Shown: positions 16,219-42,348 of the stretch, piece by piece
Position numbering within the stretch: the first letter of the stretch is position 1
Layout: every line of letters starts with the position of its first letter
NCBI GenBank assembly: GCA_009746045.1
Contig: RPFO01000034.1
Span: forward strand, 3,041,181 to 3,105,180
Length of the DNA stretch: 64,000 nucleotides
Direction: 5' to 3'
From: Mesostigma viride
Taxonomy: Eukaryota > Streptophyta > Mesostigmatophyceae > Mesostigmatales > Mesostigmataceae
The notes under the pieces: generated by a model
Seen by the model: only the letters and a program-made list of their open reading frames with translations
Database searches by the model: none
Told to the model about the DNA's origin: nothing
Program-made: the position numbers and the translations under genes

Positions 16219-18096
16219 CTACATCAAACCCTCCAGCAGTCCTTGCAGATCCCCGAGAGAGCCCCCCATGACCATCCGCAGGAGGCGATACTGGTCGCGC
16301 GCCCCAGCGAACAGCTTGGTCAGCGCATCAGCCGGGTTGAGCTTCCCAGGTAGATGAAGCACGCTCACTGCGTATGACAGTTCCTTGAGTAGTAGGAAAT
16401 CCAGGTCGCGCGTCCTGGACAGGCTGTTGAGAATGAAACTCACAAGCGGCTGACTGTCGGTATGCACAGTCGTGGTCAGTACCAAACGAGCATCCAGCCA
16501 CTTGCCCATCCAGCGCAGAAATTGCTCTAGATACAGGGACGCCTTGATGCACTCACACACCCCGCGACACTCATTGGTATCCGATCCAACTGCCACCCTG
16601 CGGCACAACCTAGAGTACCACCCACAGAGCGAACCATTGCCCTTGGGGTTGGAGAGCACAAACAAGCCGCCCATGCGAGCTCTCGTCTTGGTGAGCTCCC
16701 TGCCCTCGCCAGACGTGTCAGCAAAGCAATGCAACACAATCGGCTGAGAAAGAGACAAACCAGAAAGTACTACACCCTGGCTCTCAGCAACATACTGCTT
16801 GATCACAGACGGAGAAACGAGAGCCAACACCTCATCCACAGTCCTACTTAACACCAGCAGGTCAGGCCCACACACCGCTGCCATCCAGCCGAGCTTGCCA
16901 CGCAATCTGCTCCACAAACCCTTGGCGCACAACTCCTCCACATCGCGCATGAGCTCCTCCCTGTACTTGTCAGGAATACCCAAGTGCATCCGGTGCTTAC
17001 CCGACACCACCCGCAGGGTTTGCACCACCCCGCAAAACACCCGTGGCGTCTGCGGCCCCAATTGCTGCAACTCACCCACTGGGAACCGCCGCCCAATGTC
17101 AGCATAGAATGCATGCAAGGCTGACCGCGAAGCAATGACACGCAAGTCATCCCCATGCAGTTGTACAAACATAGGACCAGACGGCATCCGCGCCACGAAC
17201 AACGATGGGTCGTAGGGAGATACCTCAAACTCTGCGATCTCACCCAACGCACGCATGAGGGTTATCCTCCAAACAATCGACGCGCTCTGCAGACCCTCTA
17301 TAGCCTTGCACAGACCCATGAACTCAGACGTGACCACCTCCTTCCAGAACGGCGGCGTCTGCACCACTAGAGGCGGAGTACCCTCCCACACCTCTTGCGC
17401 CACTTCCTCGCTAGAGTTAGGGAATGCGCGCTTGACATCAATGGACGCACACGCGTAGTCCTTGCCTTCGTCCAGAAAGCTAAGAAAAATCATGCTAACC
17501 ATCCTGAACGTGTCCCATGCCATCCCTGGGGTGTAGAGCTCCTCCTTGGCCAGCGGGCTAGTACCTGCAAACTCTTGTGATACCGGCCTCACGTAGCAGA
17601 TCTCCACACCTGCCTTCACCTTGTGGGACAGCACCATCTTCAGCGGAAGCACCCTAGCCCCCTTCGGCACCGTGTCAAGCGGTTCATACACCCCGTAGCC
17701 CTGCCACTCCTCAAGTGCCTTACGGAATGCACACCACCAGCTCGAGAACCCACTAGGCGTTGACATCTGCAGTACAAGCTCAGGGAATGTGATCGGGGAA
17801 TGTGCGGCTATGTCCCTCTCAGTGATTCCTAGGCTGTTGGGATGCAGTAATGCAGGCATAACCAGGTCAGCAGCTGGCGGGAGATCAGCGCCCCACGCTA
17901 CACCCTCCGTACCCGACAGTGCTGCTAGCCTAGCCACTGTGCTGCAAATGCGACTGAGAGGCTCGACTGACTTGTAAGACTGTAGCTCTATCGACCCGTG
18001 ACCTACTCGGGTTAGCAATGAGCTCTGAATCCGCACATCAGGATGGTCCAGGAAAGGAAGTCCCAAAATGGCGGGTCCATCATACCCCTCGAGCAC
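16219..18096 (-). CDS. A pol, 3' part: end of protease, reverse transcriptase, RNase H
   Basis: This part of the polyprotein copies element RNA into DNA. The frame opens inside the protease: its first residues LEGYDGPAILGLPFL are the final strand of a retropepsin, so the GTG at 18096 is not a true start. RT motif A is SIDVKRAF (~residue 215), motif B-like IEGLQSASIVW, and the active site LHGDD near residue 316 replaces Copia's usual YVDD. RNase H has its four acidic sites: FADTS, TNECRG, HTDSQ and NPADALTK (the last ~residue 590). The TAG stop is at 16219-16221. The frame joins the upstream ORF by a -1 shift at a run of four G near 18105. The run looks like a one-base loss, though -1 slippage cannot be excluded. 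Confidence 0.85.
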   Translation of the reverse strand: MLEGYDGPAILGLPFLDHPDVRIQSSLLTRVGHGSIELQSYKSVEPLSRICSTVARLAALSGTEGVAWGADLPPAADLVMPALLHPNSLGITERDIAAHSPITFPELVLQMSTPSGFSSWWCAFRKALEEWQGYGVYEPLDTVPKGARVLPLKMVLSHKVKAGVEICYVRPVSQEFAGTSPLAKEELYTPGMAWDTFRMVSMIFLSFLDEGKDYACASIDVKRAFPNSSEEVAQEVWEGTPPLVVQTPPFWKEVVTSEFMGLCKAIEGLQSASIVWRITLMRALGEIAEFEVSPYDPSLFVARMPSGPMFVQLHGDDLRVIASRSALHAFYADIGRRFPVGELQQLGPQTPRVFCGVVQTLRVVSGKHRMHLGIPDKYREELMRDVEELCAKGLWSRLRGKLGWMAAVCGPDLLVLSRTVDEVLALVSPSVIKQYVAESQGVVLSGLSLSQPIVLHCFADTSGEGRELTKTRARMGGLFVLSNPKGNGSLCGWYSRLCRRVAVGSDTNECRGVCECIKASLYLEQFLRWMGKWLDARLVLTTTVHTDSQPLVSFILNSLSRTRDLDFLLLKELSYAVSVLHLPGKLNPADALTKLFAGARDQYRLLRMVMGGSLGDLQGLLEGLM

Positions 18097-20096
18097 GCAA
18101 AACGGCGTCTCCTCCCCAAGATCGTCAGCATTACCTCACCCCGCACCGGCATCCTCACTAACCCGGAGAAGTCCTCCACATACCTCCACCTGGACGCAGT
18201 GCACGGCAGATGCCTGGCTACTCCCTCACCCAGCAAGCACACCACCGCGTCAGTGTCCACTTCCAATCGACAACTACCCAGCCCGTCCGAATACCAGTTG
18301 GCAAGCTTAGAGACCGCAGCCACCAGCTCACCTGGCTCACCTCTCTCCTCGACAGCCTCGCTGTCGTCCATGGGGCTATCGCCCTCACTCGGCAATATAG
18401 GCCCCGCGTCGGCCAACCCGCCAACGCCACCAGCCTGCTGCCCCGCACCTGCGGTCAATGCCCCAGCATCGCCGGCCCGTGCAACCCCACCTTCGGCTGG
18501 CTCACCCGCCTCACCGGACCGTGGTACCATCCCACCTTCGGCCACCCGCTCCTTGCCGGCCCGCGAGATGTTGCCCCCCAACTGCCGCTGCTCGCCCACC
18601 GTGGCAGCGCGTCGAGCTTCCTGCAGGCGCTCCACTAGGCGGGCTAGTACCGCGGCGCGCTGCTTCTCCTGGTCGTCAACGGCTGGGGCAACCCCCGAAC
18701 CGCCCGACCCCACGCTAGCGGGACCGCCCTTGGAAGGTGGCAACCCAGCTTCCGGCGAAAGGGAGCGAGTAGGTTGATCAGGCCCACCCCCCTCCCTCAC
18801 CCCCCCTGCAGCCCCGGGATCCCCCGCCTCACCCCCAGCCTGCACACTGGGGTCCCTAACACCTTCCTCAGCGGGTGGGTCTGGCGGCCCCAGCCCGTCA
18901 TAGTAGGGGCGCAGGTGTTTCCACGCTAGCAGCTTGTCGTAGCAACTGTCCTCTAGCGCTACCGAAGCAAGCATGTGATCAGGATCGATCTCCTTGACCA
19001 CACCGGGACCTCTCCATAGGCCCCGTTTTCCATGACTGCCCTCCGCGTAGGCCCAGACCCTGGCGTTCACGCACGGCACATAAACCTGTCCACGTCGCAG
19101 GTCCATCTTTACCATGCGCACGTAACGATCGCTCAAATAATCCCTGTACTCTTCCACAGCCTCAGGTGACAACAAGCCCATCTCCACTCCCTTAGGCGTG
19201 ACTGCCACCTGCCCACCCAACACCTTGACCATTACACGGTTGTTGAGACATTGCTCTATCTCATTGCAGATCACCAGCCTCTCACGATACGAGCCTGTTC
19301 TCATCTTCTCCATGCATGCCATCACCTGCTTCGATGTCTGTATGTGGCGCTCGACAAGACCCTGGTGCTCGTGGTCAGCTACCCCAGCAAGTTCTATCTT
19401 CCCCACACCCGGCTCACCCACACAGCACTCAAACTGCTGATCGCACTCCAACACAGATGCCACACCAAACTTGGACCTGAGGAGACGCAATGCATCACAC
19501 AAGTGCTCCTTCAGCTTGCGCTCAAGTGGCACCATGACCTTGTACCTGGAGAACCTGCCCACTGCAAGCACGTAGTCTCTGTCGTCATACATGAATACAT
19601 CACACTGCACCACACCTCGCTCAAACTCTGGCCTACGTGCATGGAACTTGTGCGGTTTAGGTGCCCGCTCCTGACATTTGCGACACCTTAACCACACCTG
19701 CTTGCACATATCCACTAAGTCTGTGAACCCTAGCATGGCTGCCCACTCCTCACCCGCATGCCCATGCCCTAGTGCTTTGTGTAACCGTGTGGCCATGTTA
19801 AGTACACTGAGCGACCCGGCTGCCTCACCGCACGCCGCACCATTCACATGTGCTGAACTAGGGTCTGGTGAGGTACCACCTACCGGCGGCCCGCCCGCTG
19901 CGGTGTGCCCCCCTGCAGCGCCTCCAACCCACTCATTCCCCATCCCCTGAGACACTGCCCTTCCCCCTTCTGCAGCTGTCCCATGCTCCAGGTGGCCCCC
20001 CTTCTCCCTAGTGCCTGCTAGCACCGCCACCTGAGCACCCAGGTAGGGTGAGTACACCTGGGGGGTCGAGCTGGCCTCCCCTGCACCAGCCCGCAT
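18012..20096 (-). CDS. A pol, 5' part: integrase and start of protease
   Basis: Integrase inserts the cDNA. Visible domains in order: a Gly/Ala/Pro-rich linker; the HHCC zinc site (LHKALGHGH ~residue 103, CRKC ~136); and the catalytic core with Asp in VQCDVF (~165), Asp in LECDQQF (~219) and Glu in GLVERHI (~250). The last two acidic residues are separated by 29 residues instead of Copia's 35, and the usual DNGGEF is replaced by DQQFE. After a long Pro/Gly-rich segment comes the retropepsin signature LEVDTDAV (~613), then RGEVMLTILG, where the frame is lost. The frame is the same as gag's, five codons after gag's TGA, so expression by stop-codon readthrough is likely; the ATG at 20096 is an alternative start. 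Confidence 0.85.
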   Translation of the reverse strand: MRAGAGEASSTPQVYSPYLGAQVAVLAGTREKGGHLEHGTAAEGGRAVSQGMGNEWVGGAAGGHTAAGGPPVGGTSPDPSSAHVNGAACGEAAGSLSVLNMATRLHKALGHGHAGEEWAAMLGFTDLVDMCKQVWLRCRKCQERAPKPHKFHARRPEFERGVVQCDVFMYDDRDYVLAVGRFSRYKVMVPLERKLKEHLCDALRLLRSKFGVASVLECDQQFECCVGEPGVGKIELAGVADHEHQGLVERHIQTSKQVMACMEKMRTGSYRERLVICNEIEQCLNNRVMVKVLGGQVAVTPKGVEMGLLSPEAVEEYRDYLSDRYVRMVKMDLRRGQVYVPCVNARVWAYAEGSHGKRGLWRGPGVVKEIDPDHMLASVALEDSCYDKLLAWKHLRPYYDGLGPPDPPAEEGVRDPSVQAGGEAGDPGAAGGVREGGGPDQPTRSLSPEAGLPPSKGGPASVGSGGSGVAPAVDDQEKQRAAVLARLVERLQEARRAATVGEQRQLGGNISRAGKERVAEGGMVPRSGEAGEPAEGGVARAGDAGALTAGAGQQAGGVGGLADAGPILPSEGDSPMDDSEAVEERGEPGELVAAVSKLANWYSDGLGSCRLEVDTDAVVCLLGEGVARHLPCTASRWRYVEDFSGLVRMPVRGEVMLTILGRRRRFACSRGMMDPPFWDFLSWTILMCGFRAHC

Positions 20097-20108
20097 GCCA
20101 ACCTCACC

Positions 20109-20114
20109 TAGTCA
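20109..20114 (-). promoter_or_regulatory. A gag-pol junction: UGA CUA(G) readthrough context
   Basis: Gag ends in TGA and is followed in frame by CTA GGT GAG GTT GGC ATG into the integrase ORF, with no other stop. UGA-CUA-G is the best-known leaky-stop context (alphaviruses and several animal genes). It would give a small fraction of Gag-Pol. Readthrough itself is inferred. Confidence 0.6.
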
Positions 20115-20323
20115 CCTACGGCCACCGCCCTGGGCCGCTGGGCACAGGTGAGTGTCCCTCGCAAAGTGCCCTGGCTGCCCACACCTGTGACACACCGCTG
20201 GTGCTTGCGAGTTGGCGTTGCTGCGTGCCTGGAGAGTGTCCTTGTGCCTGTGATAGCAATTGGCTGCCATGTGTCCCGACTTCCCACACACAAAGCATGC
20301 CCCATGCACCGCCGGCTGTGCAC

Positions 20324-20367
<44 letters not shown>

Positions 20368-21338
20368 GAGCGCTGTTGCTGCTGATACGGCGACGCAGCT
20401 GGCTGTTGTGCATGCTGCTGCTGCTGCGGGTATGGCTGCTGTCTACCTTGCTGCCATCGCTTCCCAGGCATGCGCTGCGCTCGGCTGAAGCTGCCCTTAT
20501 TGCCCCTACGCATCGGGCCCCCATTGCCCCGAGGCCCGCTGGGCCCCGCGCCGCTAGAGCCACCACCGCCCGCAATGGCGGCCACCTTGCCCCCATCCGG
20601 CGCTTTAGCAGCACCACCTTGGGCACCACCAGAAGAAGGAATGGAATTCACAGCGACAGGCGGTAATGCAGGGGAAATCAGACCCAGCTCATTGAGCTTA
20701 CCTTGGGCCCGCAGTTGGGCCACCATGTCCCTCTCCTCACCCTCGACAATGCCCGTGATAACCTCAATCGCCTTATTGAGATCATCCTCGGCTTTCTCAC
20801 GCTTGAGAGCTGCCATGGCATTCTGGAAATTAAGGTCCTTGGCATTGCGAACATAACGGTCCACCACCGCCAGTTCCACCACCGGAATGCCATCCTTTAC
20901 ACTCTCGTTTCTCGCATTTCTCAAAGCGAGAAGGTCGAGTGTGTAGGGACGCTTCGGCACCCAATTATAAATGCCAACATGACGAGACTTGGCAGATGCT
21001 TTCGATTCAAGAAGTGCTGCACGCAACCTACCTCCAATTGCAGCGCCCTCGATTTTCTCGTCACGGCAGGAGCGCAGGCAATTTACTAGAATGGCGTTGT
21101 CGGCTCTAAACATTCCGGCATCCCGGAATAGCCCATACAGATCCTCGGTTTTATCTGCATGATCCGCCACAAACGCCTCAAACCTGTCACAGAAATCCTC
21201 TACCAATGTCACTGCCGCATCAAGAGGAATTGTCCCGACTCGTGTTTTGCACAGCTCTATCAAATTCTTCTCATTTCTTAAATCCTTCCACCCAGTACGC
21301 TTTCTCGAATCCGTCTCTTCTTGTTCTTGATCCGACAT
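20112..21338 (-). CDS. A gag: capsid/nucleocapsid protein (408 aa)
   Basis: Structural protein that packages element RNA into particles. It starts at ATG 21338, 40 nt after the 5' LTR. The N-terminal ~230 residues are helix-rich and charged (DAAVTLVEDFCDRFEAF...). Next come a Gly/Ala-rich region and a Gln-rich stretch encoded by CAG repeats (~residues 300-340). Two CCHC zinc knuckles follow: CFVCGKSGHMAANC (~residue 345) and a variant CHRCGQPGHFARDTHLC (~380). It ends at TGA 20112-20114, in frame with pol. The arrangement is typical of Copia Gag, though a CAG-expanded segment before the knuckles is unusual. Confidence 0.85.
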
Positions 21339-21378
21339 TGCTACGTTTTTCCTTATTAATTAACCCCGTCCTAGTACA

Positions 21379-21961
21379 TGTTAAAATCGAGTTCGAATTT
21401 TATTAAATGATAATTTTACGGTAATCAGGTTACAAACTCAGAGCCAAGCCCCCAGCTTAATTTACCAGCGCAACCATAGCCATTGCCAGCATAGCAGCAA
21501 CAACCGTTGGACCGCCGCAACACAATGCTGGCTTTTGGATCATCATCGTCTGTCAGGCGGCTAGGCTAGCCTGCAGCGCTAGGCACCGACGCAAGCCTGG
21601 GAACGCATCTCCGTTACACATCTCCGTTACAACACACCAGCCGAGTACCGACCAATCGACACACACCAGTATCTCGCCACTTGTCACGCCAGCCGGCAGT
21701 ACCCAGAATCCTAGTCCGCACCTCAGTACCGGACCAGTGCCGCACAGCCAAAGTCTAGGGCGTAACTCACGAGGCATAACGCACACAGCGTAACTTAAAT
21801 CGTTGTGGATCACACAAGCCAAAATTCAGCCGAACCTCAAAACGGCTAAGTCCCAATGCGCTGAATTAACCCGAACGCCTCGAACCACAAAATGGCTAAG
21901 TACCGGCACACAATCATTAATTATTTCCATGTGACTGCGAGCTGAAACCTATAATATAACA
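21379..21961 (-). repeat. A 5' LTR
   Basis: 583 bp, TGTTA...TAACA. The sequence immediately after it on the minus strand (TGTACTAGGACGGGG) lacks the TGG expected of a primer-binding site matching a tRNA 3' end. AATAAA lies at 21398-21403 (minus strand). Confidence 0.95.
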
Positions 21962-22457
21962 CCCGGCGCGCCACTGTGGGCGCGTACGGACACAGGATGT
22001 ACAAGTGTCACTTTGATAGTCCGCAGGACGTTGACAGGACTTGTACAGGACTTGATGGTCAATTGATAGGTAGGCGTGCTGTAGCGCGCCAGGACCTATG
22101 AGACATGCAATTGATGCTGAGTAGTGTACGGATAGGTCCACAGGACTAGCCGTATGGACAATTGATAGATCTGCGCGCCAAAGGCGTGCCAGAGTCTGTG
22201 TAATCAATTGATTGACAGTTCAGCTGTGACAGTACAGCTGAATACTTGGACGCGTCCCTAACAACCTATACGTGTGACTTGGTCGCACCGGGACGCTAGT
22301 TCTTGCGTGCACGTTCTCTTGGCACTGCGACCCTGTCGCCTGTGCTGCGTGCAGTCTTGGAAGTGACGTGACTTACGTCTGTGTTTCCTTGTTATTAATA
22401 AAGGCAACTTCCTGCAAGAACCATGGCGGAATTCGTGGCATTCGCACTCATACAACT
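21962..22457 (+). repeat. B+ 5' LTR, remainder
   Basis: Continues from 15161; the first five bases are the TSD copy. Rich in short inverted motifs (tcaattgatag, cagctgtgacagtacagctg). It has AATAAA at 22397-22402 and ends ACAACT. The next bases, cgtattacacgcc, show no tRNA-like primer site. Confidence 0.9.
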
Positions 22458-22481
22458 CGTATTACACGCCTCGTTAAAAAG

Positions 22482-23198
22482 ATGCCAAATTCTGAAGAAT
22501 TCCGGATTCCCACCGATGAGGAAATAGCCGCTCCGCCGGCTGGTCCTCCATCAAGACCGACTGCGCCGTCGTGGCAGCAATTGCTCGACGAAGTCACGAT
22601 CTCGCTCGACGAACTTCATCGTCGGCAGCGCGCAGTTCTTCCATTGCTCGGGGATAACCCCGAGGACCCCGATTTGCCGCAGCTGGTGCCGGCTATCCGC
22701 ACGCCGTTGGACACCATTCGCAACATTTTGTCGCAATTTACGGTCCAGGTGCGGGGAGGTTTGCGGTCGGTGAACGAGGTCACCACCGCCATCGAGGAGC
22801 TGGACAACGCCATCTCTTCGCTCACCGGTTACCAGAGAAACTTACAAAACTGGGCATCGCTACGCACGGGGGGCGCGCCGGCGGTGTCGACAAATTTATT
22901 TCAAGATCTCGCGTTGCTGTCGCTGCTCACACGCGGCGTACGCAGTCGCGAACGCCAGGTTCTTATTAACCTGGTGGCTTTTCTCGCATCTCTGCGAGAG
23001 TGGATTCCCGCAGGGTGGGAATTGTTATCCATTTTTACTCATCCTCTGCGCCTCGTCGCGCGTCGGGCGCGCGCAACCTTCGCGACGGGAAGCACACCGG
23101 TTTTAATACATACCGGTGCAGGTCCGGCACACACGCCGGATATGGAGGATCCTGAGTATACCTACGAGTACTGTGATTTCCGGGGCCTTGACTACTAG
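22482..23198 (+). CDS. B+ ORF0: extra ORF between LTR and gag (238 aa)
   Basis: Families A and C have no ORF here: their gag starts 40-50 nt after the LTR. Start chosen at ATG 22482 (MPNSEEFRIP), because the longer open frame begins inside the LTR without an ATG. The protein has an acidic/Pro-rich N-terminus and helices that could form coiled coil (QQLLDEVTISLDELHRRQRA, then VNEVTTAIEELDNAISSLTG). A hydrophobic helical region (FQDLALLSLL, RQVLINLVAFLASLREWIP) and a Tyr/Asp-rich end (YTYEYCDFRGLDY) follow. The B- copy is ~85-90% identical by eye with the frame mostly kept, which suggests a real protein. I do not recognise a family. It ends in TAG, ~170 nt before gag. It could be a divergent capsid partner or an accessory factor. 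Confidence 0.65.
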   Translation: MPNSEEFRIPTDEEIAAPPAGPPSRPTAPSWQQLLDEVTISLDELHRRQRAVLPLLGDNPEDPDLPQLVPAIRTPLDTIRNILSQFTVQVRGGLRSVNEVTTAIEELDNAISSLTGYQRNLQNWASLRTGGAPAVSTNLFQDLALLSLLTRGVRSRERQVLINLVAFLASLREWIPAGWELLSIFTHPLRLVARRARATFATGSTPVLIHTGAGPAHTPDMEDPEYTYEYCDFRGLDY

Positions 23199-23368
23199 GT
23201 CGGCCAATTTTCTTTTCCAGTACTGTACTCGTCGACATTTTTGTCGATTTTTCAACGGCAATTCGCGGGGGCGGCGGCGACACCGGCGCAGGCGGCAGTT
23301 GCGACAATTTTGTACATACTTTGTTCTGCTGCTGTGCTGAGGTGTTTTTGAATAGCTTGTAGTGCAGA

Positions 23369-24486
23369 ATGGCAGACGGGCGCCGTAGCAAAGGTGCCCC
23401 AGCCAGTGGGAATAATGGTGGTGCTGGTAGTGGGACCGCTCACGTAGATGACGTGGGGGTTACCGGAGAGATTACCAACATTCATCACAATAATAATAAT
23501 GCACAGGTTGTTCATGGTTTTGACCTTACCACTCAGGGATTATTAATTGTAAATCAGCTGCAACCTGTGACATCTGACTCTAAGCCTAAGCAGGCTGAAG
23601 AGTTTGTAGAAGGGCTGGAAGGGTTTCCTAGTTTGTACGGGGGTACCAACTACTATCAGATCTGGATAGGCAGCAGCACGTTTGGCAAGTGCACTGATCA
23701 GATCAAGGACCTAACCAGGGAATGTAAGAAGGCCAACAAGGCCTGGGCAGTGTATGTAGCTGAGCTGAAGGAGTTGCTTGAAGACCAGCGAAAGAAGGTC
23801 GGCATCCATTGGCAAGACAAGTATCAAGGGTGGGAGGTCAAGGGGGATCTCATCCAGAATTTCCTTAGCTATTGCAAAATGGTTGAGGAAGGCAGGGCCC
23901 ACGGTTTCAACGTGGCAGATAACATAGCCCTGACCAACTGGTTGAAGGTCTCTGGGCTGGATAAGGCTACACGTGGCTCTTTAAAGGTCATGTGTGCCCC
24001 ACACTCAACCCTCAAGGCCTACAAGGTCATAATCAAACAAGCACTCGAGGCAGAGGAGCTGTTTGAGGGTGGAGTGCCAGCAGTGAAGGCTACCCAGGCA
24101 GGTGGGCGTACCCAGGGGGGCTCCAAACGTCTGAGGCTGACAGAAGCCAAGGAGGGCGTAGGGGCAACCACAACAAGCGCAAGGCCAATCATTCACCCGA
24201 CCCTGACAGGAGGTCACACTCCAAGTCGGTGTTCAGGCGGGTGGGTGGTCAGCCCAAGCAGGGCAACGCGTCTGACAACGGGGGCAGTGGCCAGGGCAAG
24301 TCAAAGATACAATGCTACCTGTGCAAGGGGTGGGGGCACATCAAGAAGGAGTGTCCCAGCTTCAAGAAGTCCCAGGGCCAGGGCAGCAACAAGAATAACA
24401 ACAACAACAAGAAGAAGAACAACAACAAGTCCCAGGCAGGCCAGCCTTCAAAGGGCAGTCAGCAAGAAGACAACAAGGAGCAGTGA
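23369..24486 (+). pseudogene. B+ gag (frameshifted)
   Basis: Starts at ATG 23369 and parallels the intact B- gag (371 aa). A 1-bp deletion near 24127 (ccaaacg versus ccaagacg in B-) throws the frame, which then stays open to 24577 as nonsense. The native tail is still readable in another frame at 24229-24486. It holds the zinc knuckle CYLCKGWGHIKKEC, an Asn/Lys-rich run and the terminal TGA. A further 1-bp loss near 24525 separates this tail from pol. Confidence 0.85.
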
Positions 24487-24626
24487 CTGTCTGAGGCAAC
24501 CCCTACACACCTTAATTCACCCAGGGGGAGGCCAGGTGCTCCAATGCAGATTTTATATCTGGGCAACAAGAGGGTGATCTCCAGGTTCAGGGTGGCCCCA
24601 GGTCACCTGGAGAGGTACAGGTTCCT

Positions 24627-27600
24627 ATGAAGACGTCCTTGACAGCTGGTGCAGCTGTAAGAATGTCTGACCCCATGCATCCTCGTGCTGGGCACGAGGG
24701 TGGACCTCTCATTTTGAGAGAAACCAATGTACAACCACAGAGGGGTGTGAAGGCCTCTGGTGGTATGCATGTGGTCCCTGCTGGCGGTCCAGGTGTTGGG
24801 CATGAGCAGGGTGACTCAGGCTCTGAGTCAGAACAGGATGGAAGTCAGCATGGTGATGCTGGACAACCTGACAGCACAGTCCTGACTGTGCCAGGGACTG
24901 CTTCCTCTGTGTACCAGGAGTTGGGTGCCCGAATCCACAACATGTTTGGGCATGCCACTTCTCTGTCAAACAACTTTGCCTTCCGTATGGGCAGGGCACC
25001 CCTTCTCAAGGCGTGTCAGCAAGCTGCCTCACGGTGTAAGTGCCAGTTGTCCTCCAACAAGCCCAGGAAATCACATGCCAAAGCTCTACCTCAGAGCATT
25101 GGTGATCTGCAGTGTGATATCCAACACATCAGGGGCATGCAACTGTTGGTGTGCGTGGACAGGTACACGAAATACAAGGTGCTAGAGCATTTACCTTCTA
25201 TGAAGAACAGGTACTTGCTGGCTGCCCTGCAGAATGTAAGAGCCAAGTTTCCTACCACAAGGATCCAGGTGGACATGCAGTTTCAGCATCTCAAGGGTGA
25301 TCCTACCCTTCCTGAGTTGCTGGTTACACCTAGGGAGGCTCATGGGCAGCAGGGTGCTATCGAGAGGGCAATCCAGGAGGTCAAGAAATTGATCATCTCT
25401 GAAGACTGGGTACCCTTGTCTGCACCTGCACTTGTCAGGAGTGCATGGCTGAGGAACGTGGAGCAGCAGCTGAACAGCAGGGTTAACTTCTACTATGATG
25501 GAGTTGCTGTCAGCCCAATGGGTCTATATCATGGCCTGTGCCCACCACATGTGCTGGAGGGCTGGAAACATGCTGCACATGTCACCTTTGCCAAGCTGAG
25601 GGAGAAGGACCGGGGTTGGAAGATGCTGGAGCCACAAGTGGGTCAGAAGGTCCTAGCTTGGAAGGAACCTAGCCTTTATGGCAAACGTGGTAGCTGGAGT
25701 CCTGGGGTGGTTACCCAGGTTGATGAAGCTAGCCACGCATGCTTGGTCAGCATGGAGGACGAACCAAAGCATGTGCACCGGCTGAGTTGGTCATATGTCA
25801 AGCCTAACCTGATGAATGAGGGCAGTCAGGCACAAGGCTCACAGGATCTGCAGGATTTTCAGGTCCCAGGTGACATCACTGACGCAACGACCACATCTGT
25901 TGCAGGGGAATCTGTCAGCCCTGGCCAGGTTGCAGAGGTACTTGTTGAACAGGCTGCAAGGTCAACAGCTGGGGAGTCAACTGTCAAGCCCAAGGCACTA
26001 ACCAAGCCCAGGGGGACAAGTTTGGCTGGATTGATTGGGGCTCTACAAAGAGCCAAGAAGCAGCCCAAGGTAGCCAAGCTCAGGTGGCATGGCAATCTGG
26101 GGCTGGACACTGCCTTAGAGGTAGACACTAATTCTCAGGTTTCCATCATTGGGACCAGGGCTGCAGCAGGGTACAGCATGTCTGAACCCAGCTATCAGTT
26201 TGTGTCTGACTTCAGTGGCGGGGTACACGTGAAGGTACTGGGTGAGGTATTCATTCCTATCCTTGGACAGGACACTGCTTTTTGTGTCTTGGAGGGCTAT
26301 CAAGGACCTGCTCTTCTGGGGCAGAATTTCCTATGCCAGGATGGGTAGTGATCACGTCCTCTCTCCTGACTAAGGAAGGGGCTGGTCAGGTCCCACTGAT
26401 TAATTTCAGGACCACTCACCTATCACGTGCAGTAACCAGGTCGGTTAAGCGTGTGCAAGTGTGCCAGGGGCAGGAGCCCTTGGTTGATGACCTCATACTG
26501 CCAGCTGCTAGTCATCCAAGCAGTTTGGGCATTGGTCCTCACTCACTTGCTGGACACAGCCCTATCAACTACCAAGGCCTGGTGAAGCTCATGTCCTCTC
26601 CCATTATGTGTCCCCAGGTCACACTGGGTCTGATTAAATCTGGGGAGGACTGGATCTCCAAGAAATGCGTGGAACCTGTCAATGACCTGCCTCCTGCACG
26701 ACGTCTACTCAAGCTCAAGTTTGTCATCAAGATGAAGGAGGTGGACGGGGTCAAGGTACCACATGTCAGGCCAGTGCTGAATGAGTTCAAGGGTACTGGT
26801 GAGTGCACTGCTGAGGAGTTGTATACCCCTGGCATGCTGCATGACACTTGGAGGCTGCTGCTGTGTGTATTTCTAGGCCTTCTCAACAAGGGCTTGGACT
26901 ATGGCTCAGTGGTGGTAGACTTCAAGAGGGCATTTCTGGAGGGGATGCAGATGTGGCACAGGAAAAGTGGGAGGGCAAGACGCCTTTCTATGTTAGGGTG
27001 CCTGCTGTATGGAAAAGGGACATCCACACGGAGTTCCTTAAAATCCTCAAGGGCCTGGAGGGCCTGAGGTCAAGTCCAATAATCTGGAGGGAGACTCTCA
27101 ACCGTTTCCTGAAGGAGCATTGCAACTTGAAGGTCTCTCCTGTAGACCCCTGTCTGTTTCTGGGGCAATGGGAAGGCCTGCCAGTGTATGCTTCGCTGCA
27201 CGGGGATGACCTACATCTGATAGCTCCCACGTCGTGGCTTAAGGAGCTGATCTCCATCATTAAGTCCAAGTTTCCTCTGGGTAGGGAGCAATGGCAGGTG
27301 GAGAATGAGCCTCTGCTGTTTGTGGGCATGGAGGCCACACTGGTGAAGAAGGGGGGAGTGGCGTATGCTGCTGGTGGGGGGCAATGATTATCAAGAGACC
27401 CTCATTAGCAAGCTTCCTCCAACCATCACACAGGCACTGTGTCCCATGGTGAGGGGCATGGTTGCTTGGGTGGCAGGCATTTCCAGGCCAGACCTTATGG
27501 TCATAGCCAGGTTGCCTGATGACATGCTGGTGGAGCTAGGGTCTGCCAAGGTGGCTGATCAGGTCAGGGCTTCATCTGGCATTCTGTTGTCTGCAGTGGA

Positions 27601-33766: not shown

Positions 33767-33904
33767 AGGAACCTGTACCTCTCCAGGTGACCTGGGGCCA
33801 CACTGAACCTGGAGATCACCCTCTTGTTGCCCAGATATAAAATCTGCATTGGAGCACCTGGCCTCCCCCTTGGGTGAATTAAGGTGTGTAGGGGTTGCCT
33901 CAGA

Positions 33905-33910
33905 CAGTCA
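33905..33910 (-). promoter_or_regulatory. B- gag-pol junction: in-frame UGA CUG
   Basis: Gag's TGA is followed by CTG TCT GAG GCA and 47 open codons in the same frame up to the ATG of pol. No second stop intervenes, so readthrough would give Gag-Pol. The equivalent region in B+ has lost one base. Confidence 0.6.
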
Positions 33911-35023
33911 CTGCTCCTTGTTGTCTTCTTGCTGACTGCCCTTTGAAGGCTGGCCTGCCTGGGACTTGTTGTTGTTCTTCTTGTTGTTGTTGTTATTCTT
34001 GTTGCTGCCCTGGCCCTGGGACTTCTTGAAGCTGGGACACTCCTTCTTGATGTGCCCCCACCCCTTGCACAGGTAGCATTGTATCTTGGACTTGCCCTGG
34101 CCACTGCCCCCATTGTCAGACGCGTTGCCCTGCTTGGGCTGACCACCCACCCGCCTGAACACCGACTTGGAGTGTGACCTCCTGTCAGAATCAGGTGAAT
34201 GATCTCCCTTGCGCTTGTGATGGTTGCCCCTACGCCCTCCTTGGCTTCGGTCAGCCTCAGACGTCTTGGAGCCACCCTGGGTACGCCCGCCTGCCTGGGT
34301 AGCCTTCACTGCTGGCACTCCACCCTCAAACAGCTCCTCTGCCTCGAGAGCTTGTTTAATGATGACCTTGTAGGCCTTCAGGGTAGAGTGTGGGGCACAC
34401 ATGACTTTTAAGGAGCCACGTGTCGCCTTATCCAGCCCAGAAACCTTGAGCCAGTTGGTTAGGGCTATGTTATCAGCGACATTAAAGCCGTGAGCCCTGC
34501 CCTCCTCAACCATCTTACAATAGTTGAGAAAGTTCTGGATCAGGTCCCCCTTGACCTCCCACCCTTGGTACTTGTCCTGCCAATGGATGCCGACCTTCTT
34601 TCGTTGGTCCTCCAGCAGCTCCTTCAGCTCAGCCACGTACAGTGCCCAGGCCTTATTGGCCTTTTTGCACTCCCTGGTTAGGTCCTTAATCTGGTCAGTA
34701 CACTTGCCAAAAGTGCTACTGCCTATCCAGATTTGATAGTAATTTGTACCACCGTACAAGCTAGGGAACCCTTCCAATCCCTCCACAAACTCTTCAGCCT
34801 GCTTAGGCTTGGAGTCTGAGGTTACAGGCTGCAACTGATTGACAATTAAAAGACCCTGTGTGGTAAGATCAAAGCCATGAATAGCTTGTGCATTATTATT
34901 ATTGTGAGGAAGGTTGGTAATCTCTCCGGTAAGCCCCACGTCATCTACGTGAGCGGTTCCACTACCAGCACCCCCATTATTATTCCCACTGGCTGGACCC
35001 TTGCTACGGCGTCCCTCAGCCAT
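33908..35023 (-). CDS. B- gag: capsid/nucleocapsid protein (371 aa)
   Basis: Intact ORF from ATG 35023 to TGA. It has a Gly/Ser/Asn-rich N-terminus, then a helical capsid-like region of ~200 residues (FVEGLEGFPSLYGG..., ITREC-type charged helices). A basic Ser/Arg-rich linker follows, then one CCHC knuckle (CYLCKGWGHIKKEC, ~residue 322) and an Asn/Lys/Gln-rich end. It binds and packages element RNA. It is nearly identical to the B+ gag except in the first ~50 residues, where the two copies differ more. Confidence 0.9.
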   Translation of the reverse strand: MAEGRRSKGPASGNNNGGAGSGTAHVDDVGLTGEITNLPHNNNNAQAIHGFDLTTQGLLIVNQLQPVTSDSKPKQAEEFVEGLEGFPSLYGGTNYYQIWIGSSTFGKCTDQIKDLTRECKKANKAWALYVAELKELLEDQRKKVGIHWQDKYQGWEVKGDLIQNFLNYCKMVEEGRAHGFNVADNIALTNWLKVSGLDKATRGSLKVMCAPHSTLKAYKVIIKQALEAEELFEGGVPAVKATQAGGRTQGGSKTSEADRSQGGRRGNHHKRKGDHSPDSDRRSHSKSVFRRVGGQPKQGNASDNGGSGQGKSKIQCYLCKGWGHIKKECPSFKKSQGQGSNKNNNNNKKNNNKSQAGQPSKGSQQEDNKEQ

Positions 35024-35192
35024 CCTGCACTACCAGCTATTCAAAGAACACCTTAACAAAGCAGCAGAAAATATGTACAAAATTTTTGTGTCGCCACTGC
35101 CGCCTGCGCCGGTGTCGCTGCCGCCCCCGCGAATTGCCGCCGAAATTCGACAAAAAAATGTCGACAAGTACTGCAGAAGAAAATTAGGCCGA

Positions 35193-35899
35193 CTAGTAGT
35201 CAAGGCCCCTGAAGTCGCAGTACGTGTATACGAACTCACGATCCTCCATATCCAGCTCCGGACCTGCACCGGTATGAATTAAAACCGGCGTGCTCCCCGC
35301 CGCGTAAGTTGCGACGCGCCGACGCGCGACGAGGCGCAGAGGATGTGTAAAGATCGTCAATAATTCCCACCCCGCGGGAATCCACTCTCGCACAGAGGCG
35401 AGAAATGCCACCAGGTTAATTAAAACCTGGCGCTCACGACTGCGTACGCCGCGAGTGAGCAGCGATAGCAGCGCGAGATCCTGAAACAAATTTGTTGACA
35501 CCGCCGGCGCGCCCCCCGTGCGAAGCGATGCCCAGTTTTGCAGGTTTCTCTGGTAACCGGTGAGTGAAGAGAGGACGTTGTCCAACTCCTCAATGGCAGT
35601 CGTGACTTCGGTCACCGACCGCAAACCTCCCCGCACCTGGACCGTAAATGTCGATAAAATGTTTCGAATCTGGTCCAACAGGTGCGGAGCCGGCACCAGT
35701 GCTGGCAAATCGGGGTCCTCGGGGTTATCCCCGAGCAATGCGTGAGCTGCACGCTGCTGACGATGAAGCTCGTCGAGCGAAACTGTAACTTCGTCGAGCA
35801 ATTGTTGCCACGACGGCACAGTGGTCTTGACGAAGAACCAGCCGGCGGAGCGGCTATTTCCTCATCGTCCGGAATCCGAAATTCTTCCGAATTTGGCAT
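35193..35899 (-). pseudogene. B- ORF0 (frameshifted)
   Basis: Homologue of 22482-23198. ATG at 35899 (MPNSEEFRIPDDEE). A small indel near 35820 shifts the frame, after which the protein is open and aligned with B+ ORF0 to the same terminal FRGLDY and TAG. Conserved blocks include RNLQNWASLRTGGAPAVST and the LINLVAFLAS helix. Confidence 0.75.
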
Positions 35900-35923
35900 C
35901 TTTTTGACAGAGCGTGTAATACG

Positions 35924-36540
35924 AGTTGTGAGGGTAAGAATGCCACGAATTCCGCCATGGTTCTTGCAGGAAGTTGCCTTTATTATTAACAAGGAAACAC
36001 AGACGTAAGTCACGTCACTTCCAAGACTGCACGCAGCACAGACGACAGGGTCGCAGTGCCAAGAGAACGTGCACGCAAGAACTAGCGTCCCGGTGTGACC
36101 AAGTCACTCATATAGCTTACTAGGGACGCGTCCAAGTATTCAGCTGCACTGTCACAGCTGAACTGTCAATCAATTGATTACACAGACTCTGGCACGCCTT
36201 TGGCGCGCAGATCTATCAATTGTCCATACGGCTAGTCCTGTGGACCTATCCGTACACTAGTCAGCATCAATTGTCTCATAGGTCCTGGCGCGCTACAGTG
36301 CGCCTACCTATCAATTGACCATCAAGTCCTGTACAAGTCCTGTCAACGTCCTGCGGACTATCAAAGTGACACTTGTACATCCTGTGTCCGTACGCGCCCA
36401 CAGTGGCGCGCCGGGTACTGTCGGCACAGCCTAGGAAACGTCATAACTTTTACGTTCCTTAACCAAATGAGGCGTTCAAGGTGCCGTTGGAAAGAGCGTA
36501 ACAATCTCTATCCATCTAACGTAAATCCTTTACGTTAACT
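35924..36540 (-). repeat. B- 5' LTR
   Basis: 617 bp direct copy of 28717-29333. It carries TATA-like (ctcatatag complement) and AATAAA motifs. Confidence 0.95.
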
Positions 36541-36892: not shown

Positions 36893-37136
36893 AGTTAACG
36901 TAAAGGACTTACGTTAGATGGATAGAGATTGTTACGCTCTTTCCAACGGCACCTTGAACGCCTCATTTGGTTAAGGAACGTAAAAGTTATGACGTTTCCT
37001 AGGCTGTGCCGACAGTACCCGGCGCGCCACTGTGGGCGCGTACGGACACAGGATGTACAAGTGTCACTTTGATAGTCCGCAGGACGTTGACAGGACTTGT
37101 ACAGGACTTGATGGTCAATTGATAGGTAGGCGTGCT
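36893..37136 (+). repeat. B+ 3' LTR, first part
   Basis: AGTTAACG to gtgct; interrupted by element C. It differs from the 5' LTR at a few bases. Confidence 0.9.
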
Positions 37137-37564
37137 AGTTGTGCTCCCGAGTGGCATCTATCCGCTGGCCGGTAGTCGCCGGCCTGGGCGCCTAGTCAGG
37201 TGGGCATCAAAGATTGGTGTCTAGATGCTAGTCGGTGCCTAAGCAAGGTACGGAAGCCAGTGCGCGCCGGGACGGTCAGAGAACCGTCGCCCTCGGTAGC
37301 ACAGATCCGCTGAGTGCCGGTAGTCTCGGGTTAGAGGCTCGAGCATGCACTATCGGGTAGCCTACCGGTAGTCTCGGGTTAGAGGCTCGAGCATGCCTTA
37401 TCGGTTAGCGCCGCGCCGCTGAGCTCCTTGTGGCCTGGCCAGCTGCAAGGGTTCAATAGCAATCAGTGGCGGCTGCGGGCTCAGCCTCCCACAATCGGTT
37501 CCCCAAACAACAAAATCCCGTCTCCATCGCCGGCGTGCTAGTCAGCGGTGAAGGGCGTTCAACT
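37137..37564 (+). repeat. C 5' LTR
   Basis: 428 bp. Contains an internal direct repeat of ~55 bp around ccggtagtctcgggttagag (37317-37405). Followed by tgtattcacaac, with no TGG primer site. Confidence 0.95.
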
Positions 37565-37610
37565 TGTATTCACAACAGTCAACATTGCCGTTGACCATTT
37601 TTCTGGGCTC

Positions 37611-38816
37611 ATGGCGCGTGGCGCGGAGCGAACGCCAGCTGCAACCCAGGACCAGGGAACGCAAGCATCAACTCCGGCGGATGGGAGTGGCGCAGCCACC
37701 GTGGCGACTGAGCCAGCTGGTGGCTCGGTCAGCACAGCTCCGGGGCAGCAGTCAGCACCAACTGCCCGGAAAGTTTTCAAGAAAGAAGAGCTGCCAAGTA
37801 AGCTGCCAGAAATTCTGACGCCGTCCGCCGTGGAGGAGTTTATTAACAGCCTGGGCGAGCTCCGGCAGGACTACAACGAATTGTCCGACGCAGTTTTCCT
37901 CACCAAGCTGCGCCGGTCAGAGGTATGCAACGAGGCTACGGGTAATGCGGACGTGCGAGGGGTCATTATCAACGCCAGCAAAGAGGCGTGGACCTGGCCC
38001 GACACAGTGAAGGCCCTGCAAGAGGTGCTCGACACCTCAAGCTTTCCTGACGAGGAAAAGGAGGGGCAGGCGCTGGTGCGCAACCTGTCGCTTGACCCCA
38101 ATTACCTCAGCTCGGACATGGCCAGATTCGCGGCCCAGGTCCGGAGCAAGGGTGTCTTGAAGCACATGAGTAGCGAATATTTACTCAGCGCAGTTCTGGA
38201 TGCGCTGGGGCTGACGCCAGAGAGCCGTGCCAATGTCAAGGCCGGTCTCGGCATGAAAATTGCGCTAGCCTCTTCCGTGGTAGTGGGCACCCCGGACGAC
38301 CAGAAACGGTTCAACGCAGCCATGGCGCACCTCCGAGAGATGTTCAAGGACCGGGGCGGCCCCAGGCGTAACAACAAGCTGCCGACAGTTGCTCAGGTAA
38401 ACCCTGTGCCTGCCTCGACCCCGCCAGCAGCTTCTCTGTCGGACTTGACCACTCTTGTTACCCAGCTGTCCACGACGGTGGCCGACAACGTGGTGCGAAT
38501 GTTGGGTGGCAAACGCCGAGCTCGCGGTGGTCGGCACAACCAGAACGCGTCCAGCAAACGCGGGCCGGGAGGCGGTCAGGGCAAGCAGCCTCGCCAGGAG
38601 GGCGGCACTGGCAGGCAGCAACAGCAGCAGGGTGGTGTCCCCAAGGAGAAGGTCGTCTGCGAGCGGTGCACCGGCGTGGGGCACACCGAGGACAACTGCA
38701 CGCTGCGGCTGGACCTCGGCAAGGCGACTCGAGTGTGCCGGCGCTGCTGGGCGGTTCGGCTTCCTGGACACGACCCCAACACATGCCGCGCCCCACGGCC
38801 AGCCATGCCCAAGTGA
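37611..38816 (+). CDS. C gag: capsid/nucleocapsid protein (401 aa)
   Basis: Start chosen at ATG 37611 (MARGAERT), because the longer frame begins within the LTR. The N-terminus is Thr/Ala/Gly-rich, followed by a helical capsid-like region (LPEILTPSAVEEFINSLGEL...). A basic Gly/Arg/Gln linker comes next, then two zinc-knuckle-like motifs: CERCTGVGHTEDNC (~residue 350) and a variant CRRCWAVRLPGHDPNTC with longer spacing. It ends at TGA 38814-38816, in the same frame as pol. The A family also has a second, irregular knuckle. Confidence 0.88.
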   Translation: MARGAERTPAATQDQGTQASTPADGSGAATVATEPAGGSVSTAPGQQSAPTARKVFKKEELPSKLPEILTPSAVEEFINSLGELRQDYNELSDAVFLTKLRRSEVCNEATGNADVRGVIINASKEAWTWPDTVKALQEVLDTSSFPDEEKEGQALVRNLSLDPNYLSSDMARFAAQVRSKGVLKHMSSEYLLSAVLDALGLTPESRANVKAGLGMKIALASSVVVGTPDDQKRFNAAMAHLREMFKDRGGPRRNNKLPTVAQVNPVPASTPPAASLSDLTTLVTQLSTTVADNVVRMLGGKRRARGGRHNQNASSKRGPGGGQGKQPRQEGGTGRQQQQQGGVPKEKVVCERCTGVGHTEDNCTLRLDLGKATRVCRRCWAVRLPGHDPNTCRAPRPAMPK

Positions 38817-38819
38817 CGT
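38814..38819 (+). promoter_or_regulatory. C gag-pol junction: in-frame UGA CGU
   Basis: AAG TGA CGT CAT AGA GGT GAT GTG TGT CGC: one stop, then an open frame of more than 1,170 codons. There is no ATG near the pol start in this frame, so readthrough (UGA followed by C) is the simplest way to make Pol. Confidence 0.6.
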
Positions 38820-41800
38820 CATAGAGGTGATGTGTGTCGCGGTGAGTCGGCTAGGCGTGAGGATGCTGTGCCTTGTAGTCCTAATGTTCCCACGTCAGTG
38901 GTTCAGAATGGAAGTGCAAGTGCTGCAGCTGATCAGGAGTGCGTGCCCAGCGTGGTCGCAATAGAGCCTGAACACGCCCTTCCGGAGCTCACCCCTTCAG
39001 GTGAGATAGTGCCGGCAGATGCCGAGGTAGCCCCTCACGTAGACGTGGAGTTGGGTCGCCGCCTCAGTAAGGCCTCACTAGAGCACATTGCCGACAGGAA
39101 TGCACATGCAGAGAGCTTGGCGGGGCAGGTGCCTAGCATAGAAGGGGATGGCACCACCCCCACGGCCATAGGATTGCGGATGCTTGCTCACCAGATTCAC
39201 CTTGCGGTGGGTCATGTGGCGGGGCAAACGCTAGACTGGGCGACTCGGCTTATGGGGGCGCCGGGGTTGAAGGTCGCTCAGGCGGAGTTAGAGGAGTGCC
39301 ACGCATGCGCAAGTGTCAGGAAGAAGCGTAGGCGCTGGCATGCTAAGACTCCTTCCCCGTACCGGGGGAGGTTAGTGGGGGATGTCATGCATTTGGAGGA
39401 GGGGGACTATTATTTGGTCTTGATGGATCGCTATACCAAGTTCCTAGCCATCGAGCCCCTGCCAAGCATGGTAGAGGAGTCCTTGTGGCGGGGGCTGCGC
39501 ATTGCCATGTCTCACTTCTTTCCCATTTCTGAGGTCATGTTGGACCAACAATTTGATTGCATTGTGGGGCGGGAGGGCTGTGAGATGGTGGTTATTGCTG
39601 GGCGGCAGGACCATGGCAACTTGGGGCTGATTGATAGGCACATCAGCAGCGTAAAGGGCATGGCAGCCAAGCAGCAGGCCAGCGGGTTAGGATTCAAGCC
39701 CGCGGGGCAGCCTTATGCACAACGCGCGCTGTGGTGCCGCTTGCTCATGGACAAGTACAACAGCCAGGTGCTTTTCAAGCTGCCCCAGGGACTAGGTCTT
39801 ATTACCGCGCGGGGGCTGCAGTCGGGCATTTACCCTCCGGACGTGGCAGACCATTGGGAGGCCCACCTCGCTACCACCGCTGAGGTTAGGCGGCAGTTAG
39901 ACCGCACCCAGCCTGACTTGTCGCAGGAGTGGGAGCTGGGGGAGTTGGTCTTGTTTCACAAGGAGAATTCCTTTGGCAAGCGGGGGCAGATGCAAGGGCC
40001 AGGCATGGTGGTGGATTTGGACTGGGTGCATAGGCGGGTGAAGGTGCACTGGGAGCATAGGGACTATCTCATCCCGTGGGATAAGGTGTATCGGTACAAG
40101 GCGTCCGATGCCCAGGTCCAGGCGGCCAAGGAGCACAGCCGCCAGCTCGGTTGGGATGTGGATAGCCGGCCGGCCAAGCGGGCCCGGCTGGAACCTGTCC
40201 TACCCACCCCACTTGGGGTGGCTGTGCATGATGCGCTTGTTGCCCACCCCCCTGCAGGCGCCGCGCCGGAGCAAGTCCCCGGGGTCGACGCGGGGGCGAT
40301 ACCTCAGCCCCTCCCCGCGACCCCAGCAGCGCCCACCGTGGCGGCGCCGGACACATCGTCAGGCGCGGGCGTGGGCTCCCAGCTGGCCCACGTCCTCCGA
40401 CAGCTGCTCAAGGCGGACAAGCTCAAGGCGGCGGCAGCGGGGGGTGCGGCACAAGTCAGCCGCGTCATGCCAGATAAGTGCCCCACCGTTGTGGCTGAAG
40501 CTCATGATGTTCCCTCTAGGCATATTGCGGCCATAGATACCATGGCAGGGGTGTCTATCACGAGCCCGGCGGCGGCCGAGGCCTATTACCCTTTGCTGCC
40601 CAGTAGTTGGAAGGAGGTTGCGGGGTTTGACGGGCAGCGGGCCTATAAGGTGGCTGGGCAGGTGCTCATGCCCATCCTAGGGGTAGATGTCCCTGTGCAA
40701 GTGCTAGAGGGTTACAAGGGGATCACCCTCATAGGTAACCCTTTTGTTTCCCTCCCCGGGTTTTCTGTGTCAGCCGGCTTGGTGACCCTCGAGGGGGTGG
40801 GGAGCATAGGATTATACCAATATCACGTAGCGCTTGCAGCCCTCACGGGCCGGGGTCCCCCCGAGGCTATTAATCACCCTGAGGATTATGCCACTGCAGT
40901 AGGGGCCATTCGCGGGGCGGAATATACGGCAGAGCCGCTGGTAGCCGATGTCACGCAGCCGCAGAAGTGTCACCCCAGCAGTCTTGGCATTTTTCCCTGG
41001 AGCATCGCCACTAAATCTCCTATTAGTTATCCGCAGTTTAAGGAGGACTGCCGTGACCCTGTCAAGTTCCATAAGTGGCGCGCGGCTTTCTTGCGCGCGC
41101 AGCTGGAGTGGGCGATGTATGGGGTGTATGGGGAGTTGATGGAGGTGCCGCAAGGGGCGGTAAAGCTGAACTTGAAGTTTGTGCTCAAGTATAAGCAGGT
41201 CCTCCCCACTGACCCTGTCACATTTCATGTACGGCCCTGTGTCACGGAGTTTAGGGGCTCGTCTGAGTTGTCGGAGGAGGAATTGTTTACGCCCGGGCTG
41301 TCGCAGACCACTAGCCGGGTGTTAACATCGGTGTTCTTGGGGCTGTTGGATCGGGGGTTGGACTATGCCATGGCCTGCTCAGATTTTCAGCGGGCCTTTC
41401 TCCATAGCGACCCGGCAGTGGCCGAGGAAGTGTGGCGTGGCACGGTGTATGTGGTCAAGGTCCCTTTGGTGTGGCAGGGGGAGCTGCGGTGTGTGTACTT
41501 GCGGCTTCTCCTTGGTGTGGAGGGCCTGCAGTCTAGCCCCATCATCTTTCGCAAGACGGCTGAACGCATCTTTGCTAGCATGGGGGCGGTGTTTTCCCGC
41601 ATCGATAGCAACCTCTTTCACATCCACACACCCAACCCACACGAGCCCGCGTTCATGCAATGGCATGGGGATGACTGGCGGCTTATTGGACCCCGGGCGT
41701 GGGTCCGGCAGTTCATAACCGCTGTGGCCAAGCTTTTGCCCACTAGCCGCACGTTGTGGCTGGACCCCGACACCCCCGTCCCTTTCTGTGGCCTAACCTA

Positions 41801-42348
41801 CACTTTGCACCGCACACCGGTTGGCTGGTGCATTGACATGGCGGCCAAGCAGGAATACGCCGACAAGCTCGCGCAATCGCTGCCTGAGCGGCTGGATGCG
41901 TCCGCGGGACCGCACTTGCGCGGCCAGCTGGGGTGGCTCGCGGGCACGGTGCGACCCGACCTGTCCATCTACGCGCGTGCGCCCGACGCCGTGCTTGCGG
42001 GCATGGGAGCGCAGCATCTTCGGACGCAAGTCTTGGCGTCACCGGGCCTGCGCGTGTGGGGGGTTGATATCACCCGCCCGGTGGCAATGACCATTTATTC
42101 TGACGCGAACCTGGAGTCGCGTACCCTCACGCAGCTGCGCGCGCGGGAGGCGGCCATCTATTTTCTTGATAGCCCCACTGGGCAGCCCACTATTGTCGAC
42201 TGGTATAGCCGCATCCATCAGCGGGTAGTGGTAGACAGCAATCGCGCGGAGTGTCGCGCGTTCATTTCCGCTGTCGACCATGCGTGTTATGTGCAGCATC
42301 TTTTGCAATGGATTGCGGATAAGGCCCGCGTGGCGCTGTCGCTCCGCA
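38817..42348 (+). CDS. C pol: integrase, protease, RT and most of RNase H (cut by D)
   Basis: Residues are counted from codon 38832. HHCC zinc site: HQIHLAVGH (~120) and CHAC (~157). Integrase core: Asp in VGDVMH (~183), Asp in MLDQQF (~237), and a third acidic residue that is Asp, not Glu, in GLIDRHI (~266), 29 residues after the second. Retropepsin: AAIDTMAGVSI (~567) and TLIGNPFV. RT: CSDFQRAF (motif A), VEGLQSSPIIF and WHGDD (~944). RNase H: YSDAN (~1090) and RAECRA. Element D interrupts after LSLR; the last 74 codons are at 52513-52734, and the TSD cgca restores the frame. Codons 42349-42374 belong to D. Apart from D, no frameshift or stop is seen in more than 1,240 codons. Confidence 0.88.

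Follow-up and report, generated by a model that had tools for sequence, protein, structure and literature searches.

This work examines a 64,000-nucleotide stretch of the 440-Mb genome assembly of Mesostigma viride, an early-branching streptophyte alga (assembly GCA_009746045.1, contig RPFO01000034.1, positions 3,041,181 to 3,105,180; referred to here as the window), and the long terminal repeat (LTR) retrotransposons found within it. Three families are present, A, B, and C, and in each of them a retropepsin-like protease (PR) domain lies between the integrase (IN) and the reverse transcriptase (RT) of Pol, with RNase H (RH) behind (Table 1). Element A has LTRs of ∼585 bp that show 1 difference between them, run from TGTT to AACA, and are flanked by a 5-bp target site duplication (TSD), CCGGG. 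Element B2 has 617-bp LTRs with 3 differences and the 5-bp TSD GTTAC. The second B copy, B1, has its 5′ LTR split by element A, and no 3′ LTR of its own was seen within the window. Element C has identical 428-bp LTRs and the 5-bp TSD GTGCT and is interrupted by an insert at positions 42349 to 52511. The LTRs of B and C start with AGTT and end with AACT, rather than TG...CA.

Table 1. Features of the retrotransposons in the window. Integrase coordinates were transferred from other copies (A from L052, an open copy; B2 from L055; C from L047).
Feature	Position	Strand	Remarks
Element A, LTR retrotransposon	15162-21963	-	LTRs 15162-15746 and 21379-21963, TSD
A gag	20112-21359	-	two CCHC zinc knuckles
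A integrase-like region	18900-19808	-	HHCC, D, D-x29-E, GPG-containing C-terminal tail
A retropepsin-like domain	17974-18272	-	LEVDTD...AILGLPFL; frame interrupted within the domain
A Copia-type RT	~16729-17799	-	LHGDDL
A RNase H	~16222-16728	-	
Element B2, LTR retrotransposon	28717-36540	-	LTRs 28717-29333 and 35924-36540, TSD
B2 gag	33908-35029	-	one zinc knuckle, 17.3 bits, below the Pfam cutoff of 20.8
B2 integrase-like region	32582-33484	-	
B2 retropepsin-like domain	31986-32282	-	LEVDTN...ALLGQNFL; frame interrupted close to its N-terminal half
B2 RT	~31047-31835	-	
B2 RNase H	30283-31083	-	frame other than that of RT
B1, another copy of the B internal sequence, inverted	22458-28716	+	96% identical to B2
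B1 retropepsin-like domain	26112-26345	+	LEVDTNSQV...ALLGQNFL
Element C, LTR retrotransposon	37137-53501	+	LTRs 37137-37564 and 53074-53501, TSD
C gag	37542-38816	+	zinc-knuckle-like by eye only, Pfam without zinc match
C integrase-like region	39168-40097	+	HHCC, D, D-x29-D
C retropepsin-like domain	40521-40823	+	AAIDTMAGV...TLIGNPFV
C Copia-type RT and RNase H	41016-42348	+	RT motif WHGDDW; RNase H end removed by the insert

The order of domains in Pol serves to define LTR superfamilies. An earlier reading of the sequence alone had placed a protease-like segment between integrase and RT in families A, B, and C, and we located it there in all three, including both B copies. The coordinates of that reading stop at 42348 because the insert in C follows at once. 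Beyond these, the same order occurs in a further family, D, and in the A subfamilies A1 and A2, so that IN-PR-RT-RH was read in 6 of 6 representatives on different contigs. Each representative contains an integrase-like region, a variable linker, PR, an RT with the motif L/WHGDD, and RNase H, in that sequence; the HHCC, D, D-x29-E pattern of the integrase-like region is invariant, save that E is replaced by D in families C and D. Among copies of C, the integrase, PR, and RT motifs follow in this order at 18 of 30 loci, in one frame at 14 of those, and at each of the remaining 12 loci at least one motif is missing in its exact form. The gene models P0001 and P0002 have PR followed by RT (P0002 holds only the second half of PR), and C Pol is 99% identical to the Mesostigma model P0001 across 55% of the query. 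As a control, seven loci from the same genome with strong matches to Pfam RVT_2 were read; all seven have a PR motif (LDSA or VDTG, with LLSxxQL), then integrase motifs, then RT, and Gag shares the Pol frame in some of them only. Four of the seven (L009 to L012) are used below as the canonical set.

Near-identical open-frame copies are found elsewhere in the genome, whereas in the window the A and B frames are interrupted within PR or close to it. Copies were counted by hand with only the best candidates scored, and the counts are lower bounds: of the 69 rows of the A search, at least 6 hold a frame of 1297 aa and at least 15, those of subfamily A1, a frame of 1320 aa, with a 1249-aa frame in at least 13 of 71 rows for C, a 989-aa frame in at least 54 of 96 for B, and frames of 1224 and 797 aa in at least 1 and at least 65 of 70, respectively, for D. 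The nested and inverted copies and the broken frames of the window might suggest a local rearrangement or an assembly artifact, but the probability of either is negligible because copies genome-wide have the same order: the four families lie on different contigs, the motif check on C copies agrees, and so do both gene models. The IN-PR-RT-RH architecture is thus almost certain. Since four divergent families share it and their RTs stand on a 100/100 branch apart from canonical rows, the data support the sequence-only reading in regarding it as a real, genome-wide lineage trait.

Some copies depart from this layout in other respects. In L051, a D copy of the 797-aa type, the frame of the integrase region is broken, which, together with the prevalence of that type, suggests spread in trans without an intact integrase. 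In the B copies read, RNase H is out of frame with RT (L055:4036-4833, L056:3606-4400, and the window copy), and in the copy read the 989-aa frame stops before RNase H; this offset is either a fixed or programmed frame change or a recurrent sequence error. Relatives were also sought beyond the genome. A protein search with C Pol gave P0001 as the sole match among 7999 scored candidates, and one with the A/B/C alignment gave P0001, P0002, and a chicory Copia protein (E 0.44) among 7996; because the method requires shared 5-residue words, such a result says little about absence elsewhere. A tblastn search of plasmids with C Pol gave no match, and IMG/VR scans with the A, C, and chicory proteins gave no relatives.

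Judged by sequence, the RT of these elements is of the Copia type. Pfam RVT_2 matched A (34.7 bits) and A1 (47.1 bits) above the cutoff of 31.6 and B (29.2) below it; it did not match C or D taken singly, and C Pol had no Pfam match. A profile of the six RTs matched five canonical Copia RTs at E 3.7e-16, and RNase H is colinear with that of Copia. In an RT tree of the 6 unusual and 5 canonical rows (four from Mesostigma and one from chicory, the last incomplete and long), the two groups were split with 100/100 support and lie ∼3.2 changes per column apart, with A, B, and C/D deeply separated inside the unusual group; the tree is midpoint-rooted rather than rooted on a Gypsy outgroup, and it leaves 4 of 8 inner branches open. 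Integrase resembles canonical Copia less closely: its HHCC and D,D,E/D residues are colinear, and the score is a weak 25.9, a level that 1 of 100 column shuffles reached. Pfam rve gave a weak match in the B1 copy (E 0.017). In the PDB, a canonical integrase profile retrieved entry 7z0h, which is named Integrase, at 3.3e-21, and the profile of the unusual integrases had its best integrase match at E 1.4, with none below 1. The integrase tail, KRGxWxGPGVV, presumably resembles a GPY/F module.

With Ty1/Copia (Pseudoviridae), these elements have in common an RVT_2-type RT, a colinear RNase H, LTRs, 5-bp TSDs, and an integrase before RT. The spacing of the integrase differs (D-x35-E in 4 of 4 canonical Copia elements versus D-x29-E/D in 6 of 6 here), as does the RT motif (HVDD in Copia versus HGDD). 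More importantly, the Copia Pol order is PR-IN-RT-RH according to the available portion of a plant-element survey (PMC6317226), whereas here PR follows integrase, is of the ILG type, and is dissimilar to canonical PR; upstream of integrase the PR profile had no match in any of the six representatives. Nor do the elements fit Ty3/Gypsy, with its order PR-RT-RH-IN and Gypsy RT, as integrase precedes RT and the RT is of the RVT_2 type. The label "Copia-like" given by the sequence-only reading therefore suits RT and RNase H but not PR, and the integrase weakly.

The six displaced PR segments are homologous to one another, for leave-one-family-out profiles retrieved the missing family at E 5e-29 to 8e-37, always between integrase and RT. 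A canonical Copia PR profile built from three elements recovered the fourth, which had been kept out of it, at 7.5e-29. Run on the unusual elements (6 Pol frames and 7 Gag frames), it scored no higher than 0.4 bits (E 0.59), and a four-element profile no higher than -0.6 bits (E 1.2). The Copia PR has been lost from its place before integrase. A genuine protease in Gag or before integrase was sought with the PR profiles, and none matched. The claim that no DTG string exists elsewhere fails as to the letters, since D Pol has LDTGAV at residue 17 and A2 Gag holds two DTG strings, but stands as to a protease: in these frames both PR profiles gave ≤0.4 bits outside the displaced PR. A retropepsin fold is predicted for the segment. 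The succession of DT, a flap FSG, and ILG fits a retropepsin, and the flap-to-ILG half was aligned by HMMER with HIV protease residues 41-97. Structure prediction bore out the retropepsin reading: in VIA-align searches with two AlphaFold models, retropepsins occupy all 50 matches listed for each. Foldseek against the PDB gave 49 retropepsin-like entries among the 50 matches listed for the A model (a DUF785 protein stands at rank 11), and against viral models it gave a best E of 1.2e-3, with aspartyl proteases and caulimovirus and retrovirus Pol among the named rows.

The second motif of the displaced PR is ILG in A, A1, and A2, LLG in B and D, and LIG in C, in no case ILS; canonical Mesostigma PRs have LLS at this place, and Ty1/Copia PRs usually replace ILG by ILS, as stated in the accessible text of PMC2642776. 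By these motifs, the displaced PR appears to be of the retroviral/Gypsy (ILG) type and not of the Copia type, which makes replacement a better fit than a move. Less likely, though by no means remote, is a move of the old Copia PR behind integrase, where it would have diverged and its motif shifted from ILS to ILG, with no capture involved. A single move is more parsimonious than losing one PR and acquiring another, and at the distance between the two RT groups the signal of ancestry could be erased. However, profile similarity between canonical and displaced PR did not rise above that of shuffles, whereas the RTs of the same elements are still strongly similar, and the second motif differs as described.

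An in-frame UGA terminates Gag in family A (with A1 and A2), in B, and in C, and Pol follows in the same frame, in A directly. The codon after UGA is CUA in A, A1, and A2 (in A, UGA is followed by CUAG), CUG in B, and CGU in C; the first of these contexts, UGA-CUA, is known to allow read-through. Tca2 of Candida albicans, a Copia-type element, offers a parallel. It likewise has an in-frame UGA between Gag and Pol, and the flanking sequence alone gave no read-through in yeast (PMC2194720, in the text available), so that read-through in the Mesostigma elements is something we infer.

We favor, with a probability of roughly 0.75, an LTR lineage with Copia RT and RNase H, a retropepsin-type PR between integrase and RT, and a read-through Gag-Pol. 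In this deep Mesostigma lineage, the ancestral Copia PR before integrase is gone and a single ILG-type retropepsin domain lies between integrase and RT, probably captured from a non-Copia source rather than being the old PR relocated. Read-through of UGA by a minority of ribosomes would then yield Gag-IN-PR-RT-RH in A, B, and C. PR would dimerize as Gag-Pol packs into particles, by analogy with retroviruses, the two conserved Asp residues would form the active site, and the dimer would separate Gag and Pol by cleavage.

Several observations weigh against this account; they are set out, along with points in its favor, in this paragraph and the two that follow. With regard to the fold, Pfam gave no match on PR, singly or as an alignment, and single-domain PDB sequence matches were weak (best E 0.09, 0.46, and 0.23). 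Tethered-dimer PDB entries, in which two copies add up, reached 3e-5, but no better than 1e-3 once the alignments were fuller. Whole-model pLDDT (the predicted local distance difference test score) is ∼60, with core blocks at 68-89 (C) and 57-84 (A), and Foldseek E never reached 0.001 in the PDB or the viral library. The silence of Pfam and the weak single-domain scores would suit a segment that is a C-terminal integrase extension or an accessory domain of RT and no protease. We consider this very improbable, given that retropepsins fill both VIA-align lists, that the DT-FSG-ILG order fits, and that the second half aligns with HIV protease. With regard to expression, in family D the frames of Gag and Pol overlap instead. 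In addition, RNA structure behind UGA gave z-scores of +0.46 to +1.80 (A, A1, A2, and B) and -1.30 (C), none significant, whereas a potential pseudoknot lies behind the UGA of Tca2 (PMC2194720, partial text).

The active site is a further difficulty. The active-site glycine of retropepsins is, to our knowledge, near-universal. It is missing in every family here: as the sequence-only reading noted, the glycine of the DTG/DSG triad is replaced by D (A and A2), N (A1 and B), or M (C), to which family D adds Q. Asp-Thr, by comparison with a motif given as DT/SG for retropepsins in the available text of PMC2642776, is invariant across six PR rows that differ at most positions. In three of the four canonical elements used (L009, L010, and L012), Ala replaces Gly in the protease triad (LDSA).

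Selection and copy structure also bear on function. The ratio of nonsynonymous to synonymous differences per site (pN/pS), reported because synonymous sites among A, A1, and A2 are near saturation, is 0.170, 0.173, and 0.173 for PR, compared with 0.172-0.243 for RT, 0.104-0.193 for RNase H, 0.300-0.349 for integrase, and 0.554-0.795 for the IN-PR linker. Purifying selection on PR is as strong as that on RT, and since its pN/pS falls in the range of the catalytic domains, PR is constrained like them. The short PR-RT linker, at 0.093-0.197, is as conserved as PR, which weighs against the account, as do copies with a frame broken inside PR. A 638-aa frame starting inside PR occurs in 11 of 69 A rows, of which the window copy is the one read; in C, 6 of 71 rows have a match starting at residue 28, and 7 of 71 are full-length rows with a TAG and a match from residue 34 to the end. 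In fetched C loci of these broken kinds, the start of PR is out of frame or unreadable. These sublineages consist of many near-identical copies, which implies that not every copy requires a PR in cis; open-frame copies could mobilize them in trans. Both the altered triad in all six rows and the repeated broken sublineages would be expected of a pseudoprotease, i.e., a domain that has the retropepsin fold but has lost cleavage and is kept for dimerization or peptide binding while a protease of the host or of another element does the processing, although mobilization in trans would explain the sublineages too. We regard this as unlikely, as Asp and Thr are invariant among otherwise divergent rows, PR and RT are under equal selection, and PR profiles found no second protease in Gag or Pol. 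On balance, the displaced PR is probably proteolytically active. The fuller proposal, that a Copia-RT lineage lost its own PR and captured a retroviral-type PR working as an aspartic protease with a glycine-less DT[D/N/M/Q] site, is tentative and has somewhat less than an even chance.

The displaced PR has its predicted fold and its D-T and ILG-type motifs in common with retroviral and DDI1-type retropepsins and differs from them in its position in Pol and in a third residue that is never Gly. A limited literature search, covering titles and the beginnings of abstracts, found no Copia element with the order IN-PR-RT-RH. In the available portions of the sources, Troyka has the ordinary Gypsy order (PMC12440569), and Gmr1-type Ty3/Gypsy elements, with a Gypsy RT and the integrase in a Copia-like place, offer a precedent for an altered Pol order as a lineage trait (PMC2774666); here, in contrast, PR lies between integrase and RT in a Copia-RT lineage. 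The plant-element survey mentioned above discarded polyproteins of unexpected order as likely mispredictions (PMC6317226, as far as its accessible text goes), a step by which lineages such as IN-PR-RT-RH could be filtered out. The elements suggest modular protease exchange inside a Copia lineage. They also provide a case, open to experiment, in which a conserved aspartic protease domain lacks the active-site glycine, and whether it is active without glycine is the most interesting question; an active DT[D/N/M/Q] PR would represent an active-site class without the glycine thought indispensable.

The window holds further features. An extra open reading frame (ORF) lies between the 5′ LTR and gag in both B copies (22278-23198 on the forward strand and 35193-35861 on the reverse, with ∼88% DNA likeness), for which Pfam gives no match at E 0.01. 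An Rfam scan of the window returned nothing at gathering cutoffs. The ∼10.2-kb insert in C has inverted ends that match each other, GGTGGTCCCACGCGGAATGGGGT. Repeats of 120 bp and 30 bp form large inverted arrays inside it (44389-44900 and 45015-46066; 48042-49161 and 49265-49783). Two of its ORFs were tried against Pfam and neither matched; the insert looks like a large nonautonomous terminal inverted repeat transposon. Finally, two pairs of direct repeats were observed, one of 695 bp and 98.7% identity ∼45 kb apart (9591-10281 and 54587-55281) and one of ∼600 bp and 77% identity ∼60 kb apart (2414-3013 and 62876-63479).
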